A stretch of 64,000 nucleotides of DNA from Chloroflexota bacterium (GTDB lineage Bacteria > Chloroflexota > Dehalococcoidia > FW602-bin16): the NCBI GenBank assembly GCA_004297765.1, contig SCTZ01000179.1, forward strand, positions 1 to 64,000. The letters are read 5' to 3'. Below the pieces are notes generated by a model. The model worked only from the letters and a program-made list of their open reading frames with translations, had not been told where the DNA came from and searched no databases. Positions within the stretch are counted from its first letter, which is position 1; every line of letters starts with the position of its first letter. The translations under genes and the position numbers were made by a program. Positions 47,956 to 62,788 of the stretch are shown here, in pieces.

Positions 47956-49035
<1,080 letters not shown>

Positions 49036-49076
49036 ACGAGCTCCAACGCGCCACATTTTACTGGAGGAACAACGTA

Positions 49077-50198
49077 ATGGCAGACAAACCCTATAAGGTG
49101 GCGGCACTGGTGGAGACCATTGCAGAAGCCAGCGAAGCGGCCGAGAAGAAATGCATGCTCGGCTTCGGCCAGATCATGGCTCTGGGCGTCATCGCTGCGG
49201 GTTACCTGGCCCTCGCTACCACCCTCTCCATCGCCGTGGGCGCGGGCATCGAGCTGCCTGGAGTTCAGAAGCTGGTCATGGGAGCAGTCTTTCCGGTCGG
49301 TCTGATCGCCGTTCTCATGGCTGTCTCGGAGCTATCCACCGGCAATTACCTAACCGCGCCGCTAGGCGCCATGATGGCACGCATCGGATGGCGACATACT
49401 TTCTATGTTTGGGCAGGAAGCTACGCGGGCAACTTTCTCGGAGCTTTCATCATGGCCGCGATCATCATACACGGCGCCCATATCTTCGTGGGTCCCATGT
49501 GGGGTGAGCAGTGGGTAGCCCTCCTAAAGAAGTATGTGACAGTCAAGGCGCACCTCGCACCCATGGAGGCATTCTGGCGCGGTGTGCTGTGCATCTGGCT
49601 GGTGGATCTGGCCGTGTGGCAGGCCTATCGCGTGAAGGATACCACCTCCAAGTTCCTGCTCATCTGGTTCCCGACCTTCGCCTTCTTCACCCTGGGACTC
49701 GAGCACAGCGTGGTCAACATGTTTATCTTCCCCGCCGCTATCTTCGCGGGCGCAGACATAACATGGAGCGATTTCATGCTTCATAACCTGACTCCCGTAG
49801 TGATGGGGAACATCGTGGGCGGCGTCTTCATCGTGGGAATGCTGTACTGGTACTCGGCTGGTCTGCCCGTGGAGAAGCCGATAGCTCGCCTGGGTTCATT
49901 GGTAGGCGGACATGGCGGTAGTAACGTGGAGATGGGGAATTACAGGTTGCTGGGATTGCACATTGGGCGGGGTGTGTTGGCAGTCGCCATCGCCGTGGCT
50001 TTACTCCCCGGCGTGGGGGCGGGATTATCCGTGCTTCTGCCAGCGGAAGCAGGCATCGTCGTGCCCCTGATGGTGATCGTGTACCTGACCACCCTGGCCT
50101 ACGTGCTTTCGCTGGTGTTCCGCAAGCCACCCAAGCCGACGCCGCAGCTAAACACGGGGCCGGAACCCCAGCACCGAGACTTGAGCATGGTCTCGTAA
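49077..50198 (+). CDS. Formate/nitrite channel (FNT family) with a C-terminal extension
   Basis: A 373-residue FocA/NirC-type pentameric channel. The family blocks are FGQIMALGVIAAGYLAL, GAVFPVGLIAVLMAVSELSTGNYLT, LGLEHSVVNMF and NLTPVVMGNIVGG, with the conserved central His in LEHSVVNM. Typical members end near residue 285. Here about 85 more residues carry two extra hydrophobic helices (VLAVAIAVALLPGVG and VPLMVIVYLTTLAYVLSLVF). GGAGGAA precedes the ATG. In context it imports nitrite, or handles formate for the hydrogenase. Confidence 0.9.
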   Translation: MADKPYKVAALVETIAEASEAAEKKCMLGFGQIMALGVIAAGYLALATTLSIAVGAGIELPGVQKLVMGAVFPVGLIAVLMAVSELSTGNYLTAPLGAMMARIGWRHTFYVWAGSYAGNFLGAFIMAAIIIHGAHIFVGPMWGEQWVALLKKYVTVKAHLAPMEAFWRGVLCIWLVDLAVWQAYRVKDTTSKFLLIWFPTFAFFTLGLEHSVVNMFIFPAAIFAGADITWSDFMLHNLTPVVMGNIVGGVFIVGMLYWYSAGLPVEKPIARLGSLVGGHGGSNVEMGNYRLLGLHIGRGVLAVAIAVALLPGVGAGLSVLLPAEAGIVVPLMVIVYLTTLAYVLSLVFRKPPKPTPQLNTGPEPQHRDLSMVS

Positions 50199-54271: not shown

Positions 54272-54628
54272 CTATCGCACGGGCCGGGATGGTGTCCAAT
54301 CACCCGCGACCTCCTCGTCGGCCATATCCTGCAGGTCGATGAGATGGTTAGCGAAGATCTCACGGGCGGTGTCGAGCAGGTCGAACACTTTGGGATCACG
54401 CACGCGGTAGTAGACGCTGGTTCCTTCCTTGCGCCCGTCCACGACATGCTGCCCGCGCAGGACCGCTAGCTGCTGAGACACGGATGAGGATTCGATAGAC
54501 AGAAGGGCCTGCAACTCCGAGACCGTCTTCTCACCCGGCCGCAGGAGCTCGAGGATCCGAATCCGCGTCGGGTGCGCCAGCGCCTTGAACAGCTCCGCTT
54601 TGAAGCCATGTAACGGCTGCCTGGTCAT
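54272..54628 (-). CDS. ArsR/SmtB-family transcriptional repressor
   Basis: A 118-residue winged-helix protein: FKALAHPTRIRILELLRPGEKTVSEL and SIESSSVSQQLAVLRGQHVV give the recognition helix, followed by the DGRKEGTSVYYRVRDP wing. It has no cysteine at all, so the usual metal ligands of ArsR/SmtB and the two sulfide-sensing cysteines are absent; the inducer is unknown. GAGGAGG lies before the ATG. It precedes the flavoprotein gene and is divergent from the hyf operon. Confidence 0.9.
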   Translation of the reverse strand: MTRQPLHGFKAELFKALAHPTRIRILELLRPGEKTVSELQALLSIESSSVSQQLAVLRGQHVVDGRKEGTSVYYRVRDPKVFDLLDTAREIFANHLIDLQDMADEEVAGDWTPSRPVR

Positions 54629-54669
54629 GATGCACCTCCTCGACCTGATGTATGCAAATTTTACTATCT

Positions 54670-54681
54670 TGCCAATTGGTA
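54670..54681. promoter_or_regulatory. Candidate ArsR operator
   Basis: The dyad TGCCAATTGGTA, with perfect core CCAATTGG, lies 42 bases upstream of the arsR ATG within the promoter area. A short TAAAAT -10-like element for arsR overlaps its edge. Confidence 0.4.
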
Positions 54682-54745
54682 AAGAATAACATGGCATGTA
54701 GACGCCTTCAAGGTTAACCGGATATCTGACGGGCACCCCAGCCCC

Positions 54746-54774
54746 TTGACACCGGCCTGGGCCCTTATTATAAT
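54746..54774 (+). promoter_or_regulatory. Consensus sigma-70 promoter of the hyf operon
   Basis: TTGACA (54746-54751) and TATAAT (54769-54774) are both perfect and are 17 bases apart. Expected start is about 54781. This gives an mRNA leader of about 260 bases before hyfB. Confidence 0.85.
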
Positions 54775-54786
54775 CTGTCTGCCCAG

Positions 54787-54810
54787 CAAGATGCTAATCT
54801 TTGCATCTTG
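54787..54810 (+). promoter_or_regulatory. Inverted repeat at the hyf transcription start
   Basis: Perfect 8-base arms CAAGATGC and GCATCTTG with an 8-base spacer lie just downstream of the predicted start. It may be a repressor operator or a 5' protective hairpin. Confidence 0.5.
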
Positions 54811-54837
54811 TCAGAGAGCAAGAAAAACCAAAACGTG

Positions 54838-54955
54838 AGTGCCGAAGCCACCGTGGGTGGCACGGGGGAACCAGGGGTCGTGGGGTGAATTCTCCCTCGG
54901 GGGGATAGGGCAGGGGCCTTTCTGTCCGAACCCGTCAGCTTACCTCGCAGGCATG
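54838..54955 (+). ncRNA. c-di-AMP riboswitch (ydaO-yuaA type)
   Basis: The leader has the conserved ydaO blocks in order: GTGCCGAAGCC, ACGGGGGAACC, TGGGGTGAATT, GGATAGGG, and CCGAACCCGTCAGCTTACC followed by TCGCAGGC. A closing helix forms between GTGCC (54839-54843) and GGCAT (54950-54954). An intrinsic terminator begins three bases later. The class is known to switch genes off when c-di-AMP is high. Its usual targets are ion transport and cell-wall genes, so a hydrogenase operon is unexpected. The call rests on conserved blocks and pairing, not on a covariance score. Confidence 0.85.
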
Positions 54956-54957
54956 GA

Positions 54958-55000
54958 GGGGCCACACCGAGCGCGCAGCGCGCCCGGGTGGCCCCTTTTT
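54958..55000 (+). terminator. Riboswitch-linked intrinsic terminator
   Basis: GGGGCCAC (54958-54965) pairs with GTGGCCCC (54988-54995), with an inner GCGCGC stem, and five T residues follow. It sits between the riboswitch and hyfB, as an expression platform. Confidence 0.85.
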
Positions 55001-55038
55001 CGCTGGTTTTAGCGCGGCACCAGACAGACGGAGTGAGC

Positions 55039-57051
55039 ATGACGTACAAGGAGCCCTACATAGCCCTGGCACCGGTGATGATCTACGCCCTGGGAGCGCT
55101 GCTGGATCTGGTCGATCGCAGGACATCGAGCGCCGTCTCGCACGCAACGGCCCTTCTCGGAAGTCTGGTCGGTCTGGCCGTCGCGCTCAACGCCCTCCTC
55201 TCCGGCAGCACGCAGCAATTCACGCTGTTCGCGGTGGCGCCCTTCGCCAGTCTCAGCTTTCGGCTCGACCCTCTCGCGGCCTACTTTCTCCTGGTGATCT
55301 CGGTCGTGGCGGCCGCCGTCTCGCTCTACGCCATCGGATACCTGCGCGGTGAGCATGGGTCGTCGGTCGGCCTGGGCGCGGCCTTCAACGGCTTCCTGGC
55401 CACCATGGCCCTGGTGGTGCTGGCCGATAGCGTCTTCGCCTTCCTATTCGCCTGGGAGGCCATGTCGCTGGTCTCGTTCTTTCTAGTCATCCACCATAGC
55501 GAACAGAAGGAGGTGCGGCGGGCCGGATTCGTGTATCTGGTCATGACACACGCCGGCACCGCTTTTCTGCTGGTGGGCTTCTTCCTGCTCTCCACGGCCG
55601 CGGGCAGCCTCGATTTCGAGGCGCTTCGGGCGGCTTCGACCAGCCTATCGCCGCTGGTGCGCGACAGCGTGTTTCTACTGGCGCTGGTGGCCTTCGGCAC
55701 GAAGGCCGGTATTATCCCGCTCCACGTCTGGCTTCCGCGCGCCCATCCCGCCGCGCCGAGCCACGTCTCGGCCCTAATGAGTGGCGTGATGATCAAGACG
55801 GCCATCTACGGTCTGCTGCGCATCGGCTGGGAGCTGGCCGGGCCGGGACCGGTCTGGTGGGGCGGGCTGATCCTGGCGCTGGGAGCCGCCTCGGCCGTTC
55901 TGGGCGTGCTCTACGCCCTGATGGAGCACGATCTGAAGCGGCTGCTGGCCTACCACAGTGTCGAGAACATCGGCATCATCCTGATGGGGCTGGGCGCGGC
56001 CTTCCTGCTGGCGCCGCTGGGACATCCCACGGCGGCAGCCCTGGCGCTCCTGGCCTGCCTGTACCACGTGCTCAACCACGCCGTCTTCAAGGGGCTGCTC
56101 TTTCTGGGCGCCGGCGCAGTCCAGCAGGCCACGCGCACGCGCGACCTGGAGTCGCTGGGTGGGCTCATCCGGCGCATGCCCTGGACCGGCGTAACCTTCC
56201 TGGTCGGCGCCGCCGCCATCTCGGCTCTCCCACCGCTCAACGGTTTTGCGAGCGAGTGGCTCACCTTCCAGTCCCTTTTGGCCGTGGGCACCGCCGCCGC
56301 GGGGCCGGTCCTCACGGTTGGCGCGGCGGCCGCCGCGGGGCTGCTGTCCCTGACCGGCGGGTTGGCCGCGTTCTGCTTCGTCAAGGCCTTCGGGATCGCC
56401 TTCCTTGGCATGCCACGCGGCGCGGCGGCCGGCGCGGCCCGGGAGGTCGGGCGACCAATGCTGTTGGGCATGGGTCTCCTGGCCGTACTCTGCTTCGCCC
56501 TCGGGCTGATCCCAACTGGCATGGCCCGACTACTGGCTCCGGTGACGAGCGCGCTGGTGGGCGCGGTCGCTCAGCCCTCTCTCAGTCTGACCCCTCTGCC
56601 CGCGACCACGCGGGGCGGCTCCCTGGCGCCGCTGGCGCTCCTAGGGCTGCTGGTGGCGCTGGGACTCCTCGCTTTCCTGCTGGGCCGCCTCATCGGAGGC
56701 CCCGTGCAGACGCGGCTGGCGCCGCCCTGGTGCTGCGGGATCACGCTGGAGCCCTCCATGCAGTACAGCGCCTCCGCGCTGGCCAAGCCGGTCCGGATCG
56801 TCTTCCGTACGCTGGTGCGGCCCTACAACGTCATCACGCGCACGCACGGGCTGGGGATTCCGTACTTCGTCTCATCCGTGCAGTACGAAGCGGGCATCCA
56901 CCCTGTATATGAACGGTACCTCTACACCCCGACCGTCCGGGCGCTGCTGACCCTGGCGCACCAGATTCGACTGCTCCAAACCGGCAGCCTGCGGACCTAC
57001 CTGGCCTACGTCTTCGCGACGCTGGTCGTCGTGCTACTCCTGACCCGATGA
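55039..57051 (+). CDS. hyfB: Hydrogenase-4 component B (proton-translocating subunit)
   Basis: A 670-residue, NuoL/MrpA-related membrane protein. It has FAWEAMSLVSFFLVI, FGTKAGIIPLHVWLPRAHPAAPSHVSA and KRLLAYHSVENIGIILMG, with the conserved helix lysines and glutamate needed for proton movement, and the C-terminal helix bundle of HyfB/HycC. GGAG precedes the ATG at 55039; an upstream in-frame ATG at 54988 lies inside the terminator. It is the first gene of the operon. Confidence 0.92.
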   Translation: MTYKEPYIALAPVMIYALGALLDLVDRRTSSAVSHATALLGSLVGLAVALNALLSGSTQQFTLFAVAPFASLSFRLDPLAAYFLLVISVVAAAVSLYAIGYLRGEHGSSVGLGAAFNGFLATMALVVLADSVFAFLFAWEAMSLVSFFLVIHHSEQKEVRRAGFVYLVMTHAGTAFLLVGFFLLSTAAGSLDFEALRAASTSLSPLVRDSVFLLALVAFGTKAGIIPLHVWLPRAHPAAPSHVSALMSGVMIKTAIYGLLRIGWELAGPGPVWWGGLILALGAASAVLGVLYALMEHDLKRLLAYHSVENIGIILMGLGAAFLLAPLGHPTAAALALLACLYHVLNHAVFKGLLFLGAGAVQQATRTRDLESLGGLIRRMPWTGVTFLVGAAAISALPPLNGFASEWLTFQSLLAVGTAAAGPVLTVGAAAAAGLLSLTGGLAAFCFVKAFGIAFLGMPRGAAAGAAREVGRPMLLGMGLLAVLCFALGLIPTGMARLLAPVTSALVGAVAQPSLSLTPLPATTRGGSLAPLALLGLLVALGLLAFLLGRLIGGPVQTRLAPPWCCGITLEPSMQYSASALAKPVRIVFRTLVRPYNVITRTHGLGIPYFVSSVQYEAGIHPVYERYLYTPTVRALLTLAHQIRLLQTGSLRTYLAYVFATLVVVLLLTR

Positions 57052-57064
57052 GGAGAGACTCTAT

Positions 57065-57991
57065 ATGAACTCCGCTCTGCTCGCCACCAATTTTGGCCTG
57101 GCCCTCGTCATCGCGCCCCTGCTGAACGGCATCATCAAGAAATCCAAGGCCGGCTGGCAGAACCGGCGTGGGCCCGGCATCCTGCAGCCGTGGTACGACA
57201 TCATAAAGTATCTGGGACGCGAGAGCGTCGTCTCCGAGCACGCCTCGTGGATCACGCGCTGGTCGCCCTTCGTCTACTTCGGGGCGCATCTGGCCGCGGC
57301 CGGTCTGGTACCCACAGTACTCGCGATCTCGCCGCTGGGTGGCGTGGGGGACGTGATCCTGCTGGTTGGACTGCTGGCGCTGGCCCGCTTTGCCCTGGCT
57401 CTGGCCGCGCTGGACACAGCCAGCAACTTCGGCGGGATGGGCACCAGCCGCGAGCTGGCCTTCGCGGCGCTGGTGGAGCCGGCCCTGCTGCTGTCCCTCT
57501 TCGCGCTGGCCATACCGGTCGGCTCGACAGCGCTGGGCGCCCTGGTTGTCGACGGGGGCGTGACCGTAGCACGCGCCCTGGCCCTGGGAGCGCTCTTCAT
57601 CGTCGCCATCGCCGAGACCGGTCGCATCCCCGTCGACAACCCGGACACCCATCTCGAGCTGACCATGGCCCACGAGGGCATGCTGCTCGAATACTCCGGA
57701 CGGCCGCTGGGTTTGCTGCTATGGGCCACCCACATCAAACAGTTGGTCGTGGTCTCACTGCTAGCAGCGCTCTTTCTGCCCTGGGGCATCGCCCACGAGG
57801 CGACGCCGACCGCCCTGGCAATCGGCGTAGGCGCCTATCTGCTCAAGCTGGGGCTGATCGGATTGGCCCTGGCCCTGGTCGAAACGACCAACGTCAAGAT
57901 GCGCATCTTCCGCGTGCCCGAGCTCCTGGGCGCGTCGTGTCTGCTCGGGCTGCTGGCCGTGATCTCCGACTACCTGGTGGGAGGCTACTAG
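57065..57991 (+). CDS. hyfC: Hydrogenase-4 component C (NuoH-like)
   Basis: A 308-residue, eight-helix membrane protein that joins the catalytic arm to the ion pump. Family blocks are KSKAGWQNRRGPGILQPWYDI, SNFGGMGTSRELAFAALVEPAL, IPVDNPDTHLELTMAHEG and LVETTNVKMRIFRVPELLG. AGGAGAG lies upstream of the ATG. It follows hyfB by 13 bases and precedes hyfE by 1. Confidence 0.93.
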   Translation: MNSALLATNFGLALVIAPLLNGIIKKSKAGWQNRRGPGILQPWYDIIKYLGRESVVSEHASWITRWSPFVYFGAHLAAAGLVPTVLAISPLGGVGDVILLVGLLALARFALALAALDTASNFGGMGTSRELAFAALVEPALLLSLFALAIPVGSTALGALVVDGGVTVARALALGALFIVAIAETGRIPVDNPDTHLELTMAHEGMLLEYSGRPLGLLLWATHIKQLVVVSLLAALFLPWGIAHEATPTALAIGVGAYLLKLGLIGLALALVETTNVKMRIFRVPELLGASCLLGLLAVISDYLVGGY

Positions 57992-57992
57992 G

Positions 57993-58661
57993 ATGATCGC
58001 CCTCGACGTCGACTCCGCACACCACATACTCAATAGCCTGGCCGTGCTGCTCCTGGCCACGGCCCTCTGGTCGATCCTCGTCCGCCGACTGGATAGCTCC
58101 ATTCGATTGCTGGGGCTGCAGGGGCTGCTGCTGGCCGCCGCCGCGGCCGTGGTGGCCCTGAGCAGTGGCACTGCTCACGCCTACGTCGCGGTCGTCATCA
58201 CGCTGGCGATCAAGGCCGTGGCCGTGCCCGGGATCCTGCTGTTCGCGCTGCGCGAGGTCAAGCTCAAGCGCGAGGTAGAGATGGCGCTCTCGCGCCGCTT
58301 CGCGTTTCCGCTGGCCATCGGACTGGTGCTGGTGGCCTACGACGTGGTGGCCCCGCTGGAGACCTTGGACGGGCTGCTGGCTCACGAGGCTCTGCCGGCG
58401 GCCGTGGCCATGCTGCTGATCGGGCTCTTCAACATGTTGATCCGCAAGAAGGCCCTCAGTCAGATCATTGGCATCGTGGCCATGGAGAACGGCCTGTACC
58501 TGATGGCCGTGGTCGCCACCAGCGGGTTGCCGCTGGCTGTGGAGCTGGGCGTGGCTGCCGATCTCGTGACCGGCGTCCTGGTCATGTCCATGTACGCGCG
58601 CCAGATTCACCGCACCTTCAACACTATCAACACCGATCGGCTTCGGACTCTGCGAGGATGA
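57993..58661 (+). CDS. hyfE: Hydrogenase-4 component E (NuoK-like)
   Basis: A 222-residue membrane protein with about seven helices. The NuoK-like half holds the intramembrane Glu in GIVAMENGLYLMAVV. The family is present in hydrogenase-4 and related group-4 complexes. Its stop overlaps the hyfF start by ATGA. Confidence 0.9.
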   Translation: MIALDVDSAHHILNSLAVLLLATALWSILVRRLDSSIRLLGLQGLLLAAAAAVVALSSGTAHAYVAVVITLAIKAVAVPGILLFALREVKLKREVEMALSRRFAFPLAIGLVLVAYDVVAPLETLDGLLAHEALPAAVAMLLIGLFNMLIRKKALSQIIGIVAMENGLYLMAVVATSGLPLAVELGVAADLVTGVLVMSMYARQIHRTFNTINTDRLRTLRG

Positions 58662-60133
58662 CTATGGAACTGTTGGCTCTGCTCGCGGCCCCGCTCGTCA
58701 CGGGAGTAATCTGCCGGCTTGCGCCCCGTCGGTCCTGGGTGGAAGCGCTGAACGCCATCGGGGCCACGCTGACGCTGGGCGCCGGGTTGGCCCTGGCTCT
58801 GCGCGTCTTCCGCTCCGGGCCGGTTACGGCGCTGGGCGATCTGCTCTACGTCGACGCGCTGGGGGCGTTGATCACCCTCGTGATCGTCGTCGTTGGATTC
58901 CTGGCCGCGCTGTACTCGACCGGCTACATCAAGCGCGACGTCGAGCACGGCAAGGTGCCGGACGGACACGTCGGTTGGTACTACCTGGGCTACCACGCCT
59001 TCATCTGGACAATGCTGGTGACCGGGACTGTCAATAACCTGGGGCTGCTGTGGGTGGCCATCGAGGCCACCACCATCGTCTCCGCCCTGCTGGTCGGGTT
59101 CTACCGGACCAAGGCGGCCCTGGAAGCCGCCTGGAAGTACCTGGTGCTGTGCACGGTGGGGATCACCTTCGCCCTGTTCGGCGTCCTTTTGACCTACTAC
59201 GCCTCCCTCCACGCGCTCGGCGAGGAAGCTGGGTTGAACTGGACCGCCCTTGTCGCGCACGCCAACCAACTCGACCCAGGACTGATCAAGCTGGCCTTCG
59301 TGTTCGTCCTGATCGGTTTTGGCACCAAGGCCGGCTTCGCGCCGCTGCACAACTGGCTTCCGGACGCGCACAGCCAGGCGCCGTCCCCGGTGAGCGCGGT
59401 CCTCTCGGGCGTGCTGCTCAAGTGCGGGCTGTATGGTGTGCTGCGCTTTCACATGATCGCCGCGGGCACGCTGGGCCCCGAGTTCTCCTCCCGGCTGCTG
59501 CTCGGCTTCGGCCTTCTATCCGTCGTAGTGGCCGTACCGTTCATCCTCGTCCAGCGCGATCTAAAGCGGCTGCTGGCCTACAGCAGTGTGGAGCACCTGG
59601 GGTTAATCGCGGTGGCCATCGGGCTGGGTGGACCGCTGGGCCTCTACGCGGGGCTGCTGCATCTGCTCAATCACGCCATAACGAAGCCGCTGCTCTTCTT
59701 CGTGGCTGGCAACCTTTCCCATCGCTATGGGACAACGCGGATGGCGCGCATTCGTAGCGCTGTTCAGACCATGCCCCTCACGGGGACCATGCTCTTGCTG
59801 GGCATCTTCGCGATCACCGGCGTTCCGCCGTTCGGGATCTTCGTCACCGAATTCGGCGTGATCGGCGCCGGCTTCGCCCTCGGCAACACGCCCGTGGCGC
59901 TGGTCGTCATCGCCGCGGTAGTCATCGTCTTCGCGGGCGCCTTCGGACACGCCCTGGACATGGCCTTCGGACGGCCCCGCGTGCGTCTCAGCCCCGTTCT
60001 GATCGGTCCTCTCGGCACGGTCGCGCTGGTGGTGCCGATGGCTCTGATGGTTTTGTTCGGCCTATACGTCCCGCCTCCCATAAGCCAGGTCGTCCGGCAG
60101 GTGGCGCAGATCCTCGGCGGAGGTGGACTATGA
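58658..60133 (+). CDS. hyfF: Hydrogenase-4 component F (antiporter-like subunit)
   Basis: A 491-residue, 14-helix NuoN/NuoM-related subunit. The conserved blocks are LLWVAIEATTIVSALLVGFYR, FGTKAGFAPLHNWLPDAHSQAPSPVSAVL and KRLLAYSSVEHLGLIAVAIG. It is the second proton-pumping subunit of the operon; a HyfD equivalent is absent. It overlaps hyfE and hyfG by 4 bases each. An alternative ATG two codons later is possible. Confidence 0.92.
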   Translation: MTMELLALLAAPLVTGVICRLAPRRSWVEALNAIGATLTLGAGLALALRVFRSGPVTALGDLLYVDALGALITLVIVVVGFLAALYSTGYIKRDVEHGKVPDGHVGWYYLGYHAFIWTMLVTGTVNNLGLLWVAIEATTIVSALLVGFYRTKAALEAAWKYLVLCTVGITFALFGVLLTYYASLHALGEEAGLNWTALVAHANQLDPGLIKLAFVFVLIGFGTKAGFAPLHNWLPDAHSQAPSPVSAVLSGVLLKCGLYGVLRFHMIAAGTLGPEFSSRLLLGFGLLSVVVAVPFILVQRDLKRLLAYSSVEHLGLIAVAIGLGGPLGLYAGLLHLLNHAITKPLLFFVAGNLSHRYGTTRMARIRSAVQTMPLTGTMLLLGIFAITGVPPFGIFVTEFGVIGAGFALGNTPVALVVIAAVVIVFAGAFGHALDMAFGRPRVRLSPVLIGPLGTVALVVPMALMVLFGLYVPPPISQVVRQVAQILGGGGL

Positions 60134-61725
60134 TCACGACGGTAGAGGCAGGACGCATCGATCCTATCGCCCATCTGCAAAACATCGTCGACGCGGCCGC
60201 GCGGGTGGAGGCGGATGGCCGGGGACAGATCCACGTCTCCGTGCCGGTGGAACGGTTGGTGGAGACGTGCGCGACCGTGCACGGACTGCTGGCCGCGCCG
60301 CTCACGACCATGGTCGGCGTGGACGACCGCGCGAGGACGGGTCTGTTTCAGTTGGCCTACGTCTTCTCGACCGGCGGTCACTGGGTAAGCGTGGAAACAG
60401 GGATCGACCCGGCCCGGCCGCGCTTCCCATCGGTGACGCCGTGCCTTCCGGCGGCCCATTGGTATGAGCGTGAGGTGCAGGATCTGCTGGGGTTGATCCC
60501 GGAGGGTCACCCGGACCCGCGCCGGCTGGTCCTGCACGATGACTGGCCCGAGGGCATCTACCCACTGCGTAAGGATTTCGATCCCACGATCCCCGTCCCG
60601 CGCGTCGACGGGCCCAAACACCGCTTCCACCACCTACACGGCGAGGGCTTTGTCGAGATCCCGGTCGGGCCCATCCACGCCGGCGTCATCGAGCCGGGGC
60701 ACTTCCGTTTTGCCGCCATTGGCGAGGTGGTGCTGCACCTGGAGACGCGCCTGTTCTACACGCATCGGGGGATCGAGAAGCTGGCCGAGGGCAAGAGCCA
60801 TGATCAAGGCCTTCAGATCGCCGAGCGGGTCTGCGGCGCCTGCGCCTTCTCGCACGCAGTCTCCTACTGCCAGGCTATCGAAACCATAGCGGCGGTCGCC
60901 GTTCCGCCGCGAGCTCTCGCCCTGCGCACCCTTTTCCTCGAGCTGGAGCGGCTCTACAACCACGTGGGCGACCTGGGGAACATCTGCGCCGGGGTGGGCT
61001 TTGCCGTCGGAACCAGCCAGGGCAGCCGTCTCAAGGAGGAGCTGCAGCGGCTCAACGAGCGGCTCACCGGCCACCGCTTCCTGCGCGGCGTCTGCCGGGT
61101 GGGTGGAGTGCGGCGCGACCTGGACACGGCCGGCGCGCGCGACGCCTCAGAGACGCTGCGACGCGTGGAGGCCGAGTTCCGGCGCTTCGCCGAGCTGATC
61201 CTATCGACAGACGCTTTGTTGGACCGCATGACGGGCACAGGAATCGTGCCGACCAGGGCGGCCCACGACCTGGGCGCCGTGGGCGTGGCCGCGCGCGCCA
61301 GTGGCATCGACCGCGACGCGCGCCGCGACCATCCGCACGCCTGCTACGATCAGCTCGACCTGCACGTCCCCGTGCGAACTGAGGGCGACGTTCGCGCCCG
61401 CGCCCGGGTGCGCGTCGATGAGGCTCATGTATCATTCTCGCTAGCCCGCCAGGTGCTAGCTGGACTGCCTTCCGGTACATCGTCCGTATCTGTGCAGACG
61501 TTGCCCCCATACGCGACCGCCCTCGGCGTGACCGAGTCGCCGCGTGGGGAGAACGTGCACTGGGTTCGCACCGGCCCGGAAGGCAAGATCGACCGCTATC
61601 GCGTGCGCTCGGCTTCATTCTGCAACTGGCCGATCGTCGCGCTAGCCGTCCCCGGCAACATGGTGCCGGATTTCCCGCTCATCAACAAGAGCTTCGAGCT
61701 GTGCTACGCCTGCCTCGACCGATGA
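60130..61725 (+). CDS. hyfG: [NiFe]-hydrogenase large subunit (group 4, NuoC-NuoD fusion type)
   Basis: A 531-residue catalytic subunit. Residues 1 to about 165 form a NuoC-like domain (WYEREVQDLLGLIPEGHPDPRRL), and the rest is a NuoD-like large subunit. The NiFe ligands are all present: RVCGACAFSH (Cys235, Cys238) and CYAC (Cys525, Cys528). The usual DPCxxC becomes ELCYAC. The protein ends at Arg531, exactly where the maturation protease would cut, so there is no C-terminal peptide. Like CooH, it should need no endopeptidase. It overlaps hyfF by 4 bases. Confidence 0.92.
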   Translation: MITTVEAGRIDPIAHLQNIVDAAARVEADGRGQIHVSVPVERLVETCATVHGLLAAPLTTMVGVDDRARTGLFQLAYVFSTGGHWVSVETGIDPARPRFPSVTPCLPAAHWYEREVQDLLGLIPEGHPDPRRLVLHDDWPEGIYPLRKDFDPTIPVPRVDGPKHRFHHLHGEGFVEIPVGPIHAGVIEPGHFRFAAIGEVVLHLETRLFYTHRGIEKLAEGKSHDQGLQIAERVCGACAFSHAVSYCQAIETIAAVAVPPRALALRTLFLELERLYNHVGDLGNICAGVGFAVGTSQGSRLKEELQRLNERLTGHRFLRGVCRVGGVRRDLDTAGARDASETLRRVEAEFRRFAELILSTDALLDRMTGTGIVPTRAAHDLGAVGVAARASGIDRDARRDHPHACYDQLDLHVPVRTEGDVRARARVRVDEAHVSFSLARQVLAGLPSGTSSVSVQTLPPYATALGVTESPRGENVHWVRTGPEGKIDRYRVRSASFCNWPIVALAVPGNMVPDFPLINKSFELCYACLDR

Positions 61726-61748
61726 GAAACAGGACGAGGAGGATTCTC

Positions 61749-61811
61749 CCTGGGAGCGCGGGCGTCCCGCCCGCGCGAGACTCGCGCGGATGAGACATCC
61801 GCGCTCCCAGG
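61749..61811. repeat. Palindrome of the GGGAGCG family, copy in the hyf operon
   Basis: CCTGGGAGCGCGG is matched inversely by CCGCGCTCCCAGG at 61799-61811 around a GC-rich interior. It fills much of the 157-base hyfG-hyfHI gap. Confidence 0.75.
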
Positions 61812-61882
61812 TGGCATCGTCCCATAGAACCGATACGTTTCACATGAAGAACACGAACCGCCGCCAAAATTGAGGAACCGCC

Positions 61883-62788
61883 ATGCTGAACATTCTGCGC
61901 ACTAGCCTGCAGACCGGGCGAGTCACAACCGCCTATCCGGAGAAACCGGAAGATCGGGCCTGCCGCGGGCGTCCTTCGATCGATCCTGAGCGCTGCGATT
62001 GCACCGGCGCATGCGCGAGTGTCTGTCCGTCCGAGGCCATCACCCTTGGCCAGACCGCACAGCACGCCTGGCGCTGGCAGCTTGACCTGGCCCGCTGCGT
62101 CTACTGTGGGCTCTGCGCGGAGGTCTGTCCCAATGGCGCCCTGATCATGACCAACGAGTTCGAGCTTGCCACGCGCACGCGCGACGATCTGATCGTGGGC
62201 GTCACCCACGCGGATCGCGGACAGCGAGCCACGCTTGCCGTGGTCGACAATTCCGCGAGATCGCCCCAGTCGCGTGGCGGCGGGAACGCCGGCAGTCGTC
62301 TGAGTGATCGCATTCGCCGCCTCTTGAAGCGCTCCCTGCACATTCGCCACCTGGCGGGAGGCTCGGAGAACAGTTGCGACTGGGAGATCACCGCGCTGCT
62401 CAACCCCGTCTACGACGTACAGCGCCTGGGCATCGACTTTGTCGCCTCGCCCCGCCACGCCGACCTATTGCTGGTCACCGGGGCCATCACGCGCCACCTG
62501 GAGTCCGCCCTGCACGCCACCCACGAAGCCATGCCGGAGCCACGCCTGGTGGTGGCCGTCGGCGACGAGGCCTGTTCCGGCGGCATCCTCCAGGGCAGCT
62601 ACGCCGTCGCGGGCGGCGTGGACCGCTGCCTCCCCGTGGACGTCTACATCCCCGGCGACCCACCCTGCCCCCAGGCCCTCATCCACGGCCTCCTCATCGC
62701 CCTCGATAGATTGGAACCCAAGATGCGGCGGATCGAACTGACGAAGGGAATACTAGCAAAGGTCAAAATAGAGGCCCAAAAAGACTAA
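61883..62788 (+). CDS. Fused ferredoxin and hydrogenase small-subunit protein (HyfH-HyfI-like)
   Basis: A 301-residue fusion. Residues about 30-95 hold a two-cluster ferredoxin: the first set has odd spacing (Cys38, 40, 44, 48, CDCTGACASVC), and the second is canonical (Cys72, 75, 78, 82). A linker of about 60 residues leads to a NuoB/HycG-like small subunit (residues 160-275). There the proximal 4Fe-4S ligands differ: ENSC (Glu162, Cys165) for CxxC, GDEACSGG (Glu229, Cys231) and PGDPPCP (Asp259, Cys262) for PGCPP. The partner proteins are usually separate. Family membership is secure; whether the proximal cluster forms is not. Confidence 0.85.
   Translation: MLNILRTSLQTGRVTTAYPEKPEDRACRGRPSIDPERCDCTGACASVCPSEAITLGQTAQHAWRWQLDLARCVYCGLCAEVCPNGALIMTNEFELATRTRDDLIVGVTHADRGQRATLAVVDNSARSPQSRGGGNAGSRLSDRIRRLLKRSLHIRHLAGGSENSCDWEITALLNPVYDVQRLGIDFVASPRHADLLLVTGAITRHLESALHATHEAMPEPRLVVAVGDEACSGGILQGSYAVAGGVDRCLPVDVYIPGDPPCPQALIHGLLIALDRLEPKMRRIELTKGILAKVKIEAQKD

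Follow-up and report, generated by a model that had tools for sequence, protein, structure and literature searches.

A c-di-AMP-class riboswitch in front of a hydrogenase-4-like operon with lost proximal-cluster ligands in Chloroflexota

Introduction

Cyclic di-AMP (c-di-AMP) is an osmotic-stress messenger, and the targets of c-di-AMP riboswitches are otherwise K+, osmolyte, and cell-wall genes. In the 64 kb stretch of Chloroflexota DNA analysed here (the window), a riboswitch of this class directly precedes a hydrogenase-4-type (hyf) operon. This raises the question of what a hydrogenase-like complex would contribute under such control. The initial annotation proposed a link between membrane ion state and hydrogen metabolism. 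The analysis below supports the riboswitch and its target, but points to ion and osmotic balance rather than hydrogen as the probable purpose of the control.

The leader RNA upstream of hyfB

The leader consists of three elements:

54746-54774, + strand: sigma-70 promoter, TTGACA-17-TATAAT, matching 12 of 12 consensus positions
54830-54967, + strand: c-di-AMP (ydaO/yuaA) riboswitch aptamer, RF00379 (cmscan, full model 1-134)
54958-55000, + strand: intrinsic terminator, GGGGCCAC...GTGGCCCC stem plus five T, directly 3' of P1

The promoter, initially annotated as perfect, bears that description out and is the sole promoter-like site within 54600-55100 (shuffle mean 0.3). A ydaO-type leader with its conserved blocks had also been proposed, and the aptamer scores 78.6 bits (gathering score 38, E 1.4e-16); cmscan finds no other Rfam match in the window. 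The initial annotation had named a score under that cut-off as a refuting outcome, and the aptamer lies well clear of it. The RF00379 core blocks and the pseudoknot strand are intact in the alignment and common to four leaders, those of the window and of its three closest hyf relatives. Among these the aptamer is strongly conserved while the flanking sequence is divergent. The identity of the leader RNA as a member of the c-di-AMP riboswitch class is near certain.

P1 of the aptamer is formed by 54839-54843 pairing with 54950-54954. The terminator stem follows at 54958-54995, with the five T at 54996-55000, and a 70-nt segment containing it folds at -40 kcal/mol. A simple terminator scan overlooked this element, probably due to its interrupted stem. 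Across the four leaders the stem is kept with three both-side changes, which does not exceed the shuffle control; covariation among four sequences was hence dropped as independent proof. The terminator leads into hyfB, whose ATG lies at 55039 with GGAG upstream at 55030. The architecture of the leader is predicted to be of the terminating, OFF type.

The hyf operon and its membrane arm

Gene names of the operon were assigned using Pfam and NCBIfam:

54272-54628, - strand: divergent ArsR/SmtB-family regulator (profile match)
55039-57051, + strand: hyfB-like antiporter-like subunit, 670 aa (NF005086 hydrogenase 4 subunit B, 721.8 bits against a cut-off of 667)
57065-57991, + strand: hyfC-like gene, NuoH/NADHdh family (PF00146, E 7e-41)
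57993-58661, + strand: hyfE-like gene, NuoK family (PF00420; NF008556 at 111 bits, under the cut-off of 136)
58658-60133, + strand: hyfF-like second antiporter-like subunit (profile match and residue comparison)
60130-61725, + strand: hyfG-like large subunit, NuoC-NuoD/HycE type (four [NiFe] Cys at 235, 238, 525, and 528)
61883-62788, + strand: fused hyfH-hyfI, a ferredoxin domain plus a NuoB/HycG-like domain (proximal-cluster positions E, C, E, D)

The profiles thus agree with the target initially described, a hydrogenase-4-type operon (hyfBCEFG-HI) with two antiporter-like subunits. Between hyfG and hyfHI, a 157-nt gap (61726-61882) contains an imperfect, GC-rich inverted repeat (GGAGCGCGG...CCGCGCTCC) that may be a small mobile element or an RNA element. 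Approximately 5 kb upstream of the operon, 47956-50198 encodes a SLAC1/TDT-family transporter and, after it, a formate/nitrite transporter.

The membrane arm retains its ion path. TM5 Glu140, TM7 Lys222, TM8 Lys253, and TM12 Glu406 of HyfB are kept in 35/35 aligned rows, and HyfB and HyfF of the window both read E, K, K, E at TM5/TM7/TM8/TM12, an Mrp-like pattern. The TM8 Lys255 of HyfF occurs only in the four riboswitch operons, the other 31 having Asn (19), Ala (6), or a different residue. It is one of six positions in HyfB, HyfC, HyfF, and HyfG that separate these four operons from all others. As the four represent a single evolutionary branch, the link of Lys255 with the riboswitch is suggestive only.

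Distribution of the riboswitch

The nearest public hyfB genes come from three Chloroflexi MAGs, at the loci L036 (76% identity), L037 (73%), and L038 (72%); the next hyfB genes of that collection have ~50% identity or less. RF00379 lies upstream of hyfB in all three, at 75.5, 83.5, and 82.2 bits, respectively. Their leaders follow the order of the window, with a TTGAC(A/G)-17/18-TATAAT promoter, the aptamer, and a terminator. The genomes carrying riboswitch-bearing hyf operons contain just 3-9 RF00379 matches each, and since the adjacency to hyfB recurs in independent MAGs it is not due to chance. Only six among 45 genomes of hyfB relatives have any RF00379. The genome bin of the window has an estimated contamination of 8.95%, but the same leader-hyf arrangement recurs in three further bins.

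Beyond these relatives the leader was not detected. The hyf operon of G133/L146 (68-69% identity) has no RF00379 in the 0.7 kb upstream to the contig end, where an ArsR gene is located. Likewise, no RF00379 leader was found at the hyf operons of G350/L187 (62%), G558 (55%), and eight further Chloroflexota, nor in the scanned set of more distant hyf loci, a set which leaves out ~30 (most of L085-L115). When hyf relatives were sought behind the other RF00379 loci, the sole correctly placed match was the window's own locus. The survey of homologous operons that had been proposed therefore found the leader in the three nearest and no trace of it in the more distant ones checked.

ArsR/SmtB homologues adjoin hyf in most riboswitch-less Chloroflexota operons, including G133, G558, and G561. 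No homologue of the 54272-54628 gene was found at L036-L038, and the window locus has the ArsR/SmtB gene and the riboswitch together. Other arrangements were seen in passing. At L015 an antiporter-like gene lies on the opposite side of an RF00379 aptamer. A Cobalamin riboswitch of a Dehalococcoidia genome (L136 1033-1219, - strand, 103 bits) is located <0.5 kb from a hyfB-like gene, and a c-di-GMP-II-GAG riboswitch (L190 9134-9218, - strand) is close to a Chloroflexota hyf operon.

Loss of the proximal-cluster ligands

The closest solved relative of the large subunit HyfG is HycE of formate hydrogenlyase (7z0s; E 3.5e-106, over most of the length), and in alignment with HycE the two CxxC motifs that hold its four [NiFe] Cys are kept. 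The protein ends in CYACLDR with no C-terminal extension.

At the proximal [4Fe-4S] positions of HyfI, the window has E, C, E, D rather than C, C, C, C. L036 and L037 have D, C, E, D; L038 and G133/L146 have D, T, E, D; and G350/L187 has D, C, E, S. The four riboswitch operons and the two operons closest to them thus lack three or all four of these ligands, with acidic residues in most of the positions concerned. All four [NiFe] Cys of HyfG are conserved across this cluster-less clade. HyfI of the six operons contains 2-4 Cys, with only two in the aligned domain of L038, G133/L146, and G350/L187. Having only two Cys makes a four-Cys proximal cluster impossible in L038, G133, and G350, and such a cluster is very unlikely in the remaining members. 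Cys that might compensate for the lost ligands were considered and rejected: the PPC Cys is found only in the window, the GDEAC Cys is also present in full-cluster copies, and HyfI of L038 and L146 has only two Cys in total.

The ferredoxin domain that precedes HyfI is partly altered. Its second Fer4 motif is intact in the window, while the first deviates from the usual four-Cys spacing. This N-terminal domain of 61883-62788 has CxCxxxCxxxCP as its first Fer4 motif, and the middle Cys is absent in several relatives.

Loss of ligands occurs elsewhere in the family. In G516 the proximal cluster was lost in a separate event, and copies from Nitrospira and Methanoperedens have lost the [NiFe] ligands and kept the proximal cluster. 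L148, L149, and L151 (Dehalococcoidia), together with L065, L098, L103, L109, and L114, have lost proximal-cluster ligands and kept the antiporter-like subunits; the [NiFe] ligands are also gone where the large subunit is readable.

Order of events

A tree of concatenated HyfB-HyfC-HyfG from 35 operons was built by a quick search, with SH-aLRT as its only measure of support. The four riboswitch operons form one clade (SH-aLRT 100), nested in a six-member clade (SH-aLRT 98) in which the proximal cluster is lost throughout. One riboswitch gain and at least four cluster-state changes are needed on this tree, which places a single predicted origin of the riboswitch within a clade already without the proximal cluster. 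The tool's grouping puts G133 in the same class as the window, while the genomes of L036-L038 (G365, G446, and G418) share only its phylum. It is therefore likely either that operon and leader moved together from one class to another or that G133 has lost the leader.

The c-di-AMP regulon

The window genome has four RF00379 copies, the other three scoring 95.7-105.1 bits. Downstream of these lie two GT20 trehalose-6-phosphate synthase genes and an operon encoding MscS and alpha-amylase/GH57-type glycosidases. In relatives, RF00379 is found ahead of additional GT20 genes and of an operon resembling ProV/ProW. The window genome also encodes one diadenylate cyclase, a DAC domain protein (PF02457, G000:C251). 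With trehalose and MscS genes as the other targets in this genome and the cyclase present, gene context suggests that the hyf operon belongs to an osmotic-stress regulon.

Proposed mechanism and alternatives

The explanation that we consider probable is that a terminating c-di-AMP OFF riboswitch controls a cluster-less Hyf complex serving ion and osmotic balance rather than hydrogen. OFF control through termination is a published mode of this riboswitch class (PMC6488665). At high c-di-AMP, when K+ and turgor suffice, the aptamer would fold and hold P1 and the pseudoknot strand, allowing the terminator to form and halting transcription before hyfB. At low c-di-AMP, the 3' strand of the pseudoknot and P1 would be free to base-pair with the terminator's left arm, leading to polymerase readthrough. 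Such pairing has been described for Dehalobacter, where the left terminator arm can bind the right shoulder of P1 and nucleotides of the pseudoknot (PMC9337991). Folding of the window leader with an incomplete terminator gives a comparable result, with CCUC and CA of the pseudoknot/P1 strand pairing with UG and GAGG of the left arm; the antitermination pairings of L036-L038 are weaker or different. Readthrough would result in hyfBCEFG-HI being produced alongside trehalose synthesis and MscS. Lacking the proximal cluster, the complex would not be expected to support electron transfer between the [NiFe] centre and the ferredoxin domain, and with no such path cation/proton transport is the most likely predicted role of HyfB, HyfF, and HyfC. 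The ligand response, its direction, the pairing switch, the lack of hydrogenase activity, and the ion specificity are all points that we infer.

Not every observation sits easily with this explanation. The ferredoxin domain is still present and the [NiFe] Cys are kept, both of which speak against a purely ion-related role. The kept Cys are the main unexplained point, as their conservation is odd if the site is dead, and HyfG may have some residual hydrogenase function. A true H2-metabolising group-4 [NiFe] hydrogenase whose electrons follow an unusual route, with c-di-AMP tying osmotic state to H2 metabolism, would account for these Cys in every cluster-less copy and for the extensive alignment of HyfG with HycE. 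It would also suit the presence of HypD and HypF in the window genome (G000). That genome encodes a second PF00374-type large subunit on C192, however, which could be the user of Hyp. The maturation machinery is also present in G062, while HypD was not found in G060, G061, and G133, which have the same complex. This absence is weak evidence and unreliable given G350, where no HypD was found alongside a 764-bit [NiFe] hydrogenase large subunit (G350:C32:175252-176805). Hyp genes were dropped as a test of hydrogenase function, since four complete-ligand genomes also lack HypD/HypF. The replacement of three or four of the four proximal ligands in six related operons speaks against a hydrogenase, and together with the trehalose/MscS co-targets it means that ion/osmotic homeostasis fits better than hydrogen. 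Hence the initially proposed link of ion state to hydrogen metabolism is left unsupported, with the HyfI ligands lost in every riboswitch copy, and a working H2 hydrogenase is unlikely.

A redox role other than that of a hydrogenase, as suggested for Ehr/Mbx, is somewhat less probable again. Electrons would enter through HyfH and pass to an unknown acceptor, consistent with the intact second Fer4 motif and with discussion of Ehr of other phyla as ion-pumping oxidoreductases (PMC6349859). The proximal cluster is the onward carrier from HyfH, however, and it is missing, and the first Fer4 motif has atypical Cys spacing. It may also be argued that the aptamer is degraded or ligand-blind and retained only as a constitutive terminator or attenuator, as it scores below the genome's other three copies. 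With all model positions matched, the core blocks intact, and the aptamer conserved in four operons amid divergent flanks, this is very improbable.

A broader history can tentatively be suggested. This clade may have turned hydrogenase-4 into a redox-independent cation/proton transporter, losing the cluster first, then gaining the riboswitch and the HyfF TM8 Lys, and so joining the osmotic-stress regulon.

Comparison with known systems

No case of a c-di-AMP riboswitch with a hydrogenase, hyf, antiporter, or NADH dehydrogenase was found in the open-access papers searched. Within that literature the link to hyf is probably unreported, as the initial annotation had supposed, and represents a new type of target for the c-di-AMP regulon. 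The closest regulatory parallel is the c-di-AMP riboswitch controlling kdpFABC in Bacillus thuringiensis for K+ control (PMC6488665). Both systems have an RF00379-class aptamer, an intrinsic terminator, an OFF switch, and a cation-transport target, the latter being predicted here. They differ in that the B. thuringiensis target is a K+ P-type ATPase, whereas here it is a Hyf-like multisubunit complex in Chloroflexota. The predicted formate hydrogenlyase locus of M. tuberculosis (Rv0081-Rv0088) is headed by the ArsR-family Rv0081 (PMC6177252). An ArsR-family regulator thus adjoins a Hyf-like operon in both species; no c-di-AMP riboswitch is mentioned for the M. tuberculosis locus in the text consulted.

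In composition, the complex resembles the group 4a hydrogenase/formate hydrogenlyase of E. coli (Hyc, Hyf), with homologous HyfB, HyfC, HyfE, HyfF, HyfG, ferredoxin, and HyfI domains and the four [NiFe] Cys. Unlike Hyc and Hyf, it has lost the proximal [4Fe-4S] ligands, its HyfH and HyfI are fused, and it is under riboswitch control. The operon is also without HyfA, HyfD, and a formate dehydrogenase gene. HyfB and HyfF share the fold and ion-path residues of MrpA and MrpD of Mrp-type cation/proton antiporters, and osmotic/ion-homeostasis regulation is in keeping with this resemblance. The operon differs from Mrp in retaining conserved genes for a peripheral hydrogenase-like arm, and its transport activity is predicted.

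Ehr complexes are marked by the absence of [NiFe] ligands (PMC6349859, PMC7304191). They are likewise hydrogenase-4-like, with a broken catalytic side and an intact antiporter-like arm, but show the opposite pattern: the [NiFe] ligands are lost there, whereas here all four are kept and the cluster ligands are lost. The function of Ehr-type complexes is debated, and the riboswitch provides a genetic clue to the role of a Hyf-like complex without normal redox wiring, as the usual targets of the class (K+, osmolyte, and cell-wall genes) point to ion/turgor balance. Complete, [NiFe]-less, and cluster-less complexes, and those in which both are lost, form a natural series with which to ask if complex-I-like membrane arms can function without coupling to electron transfer.
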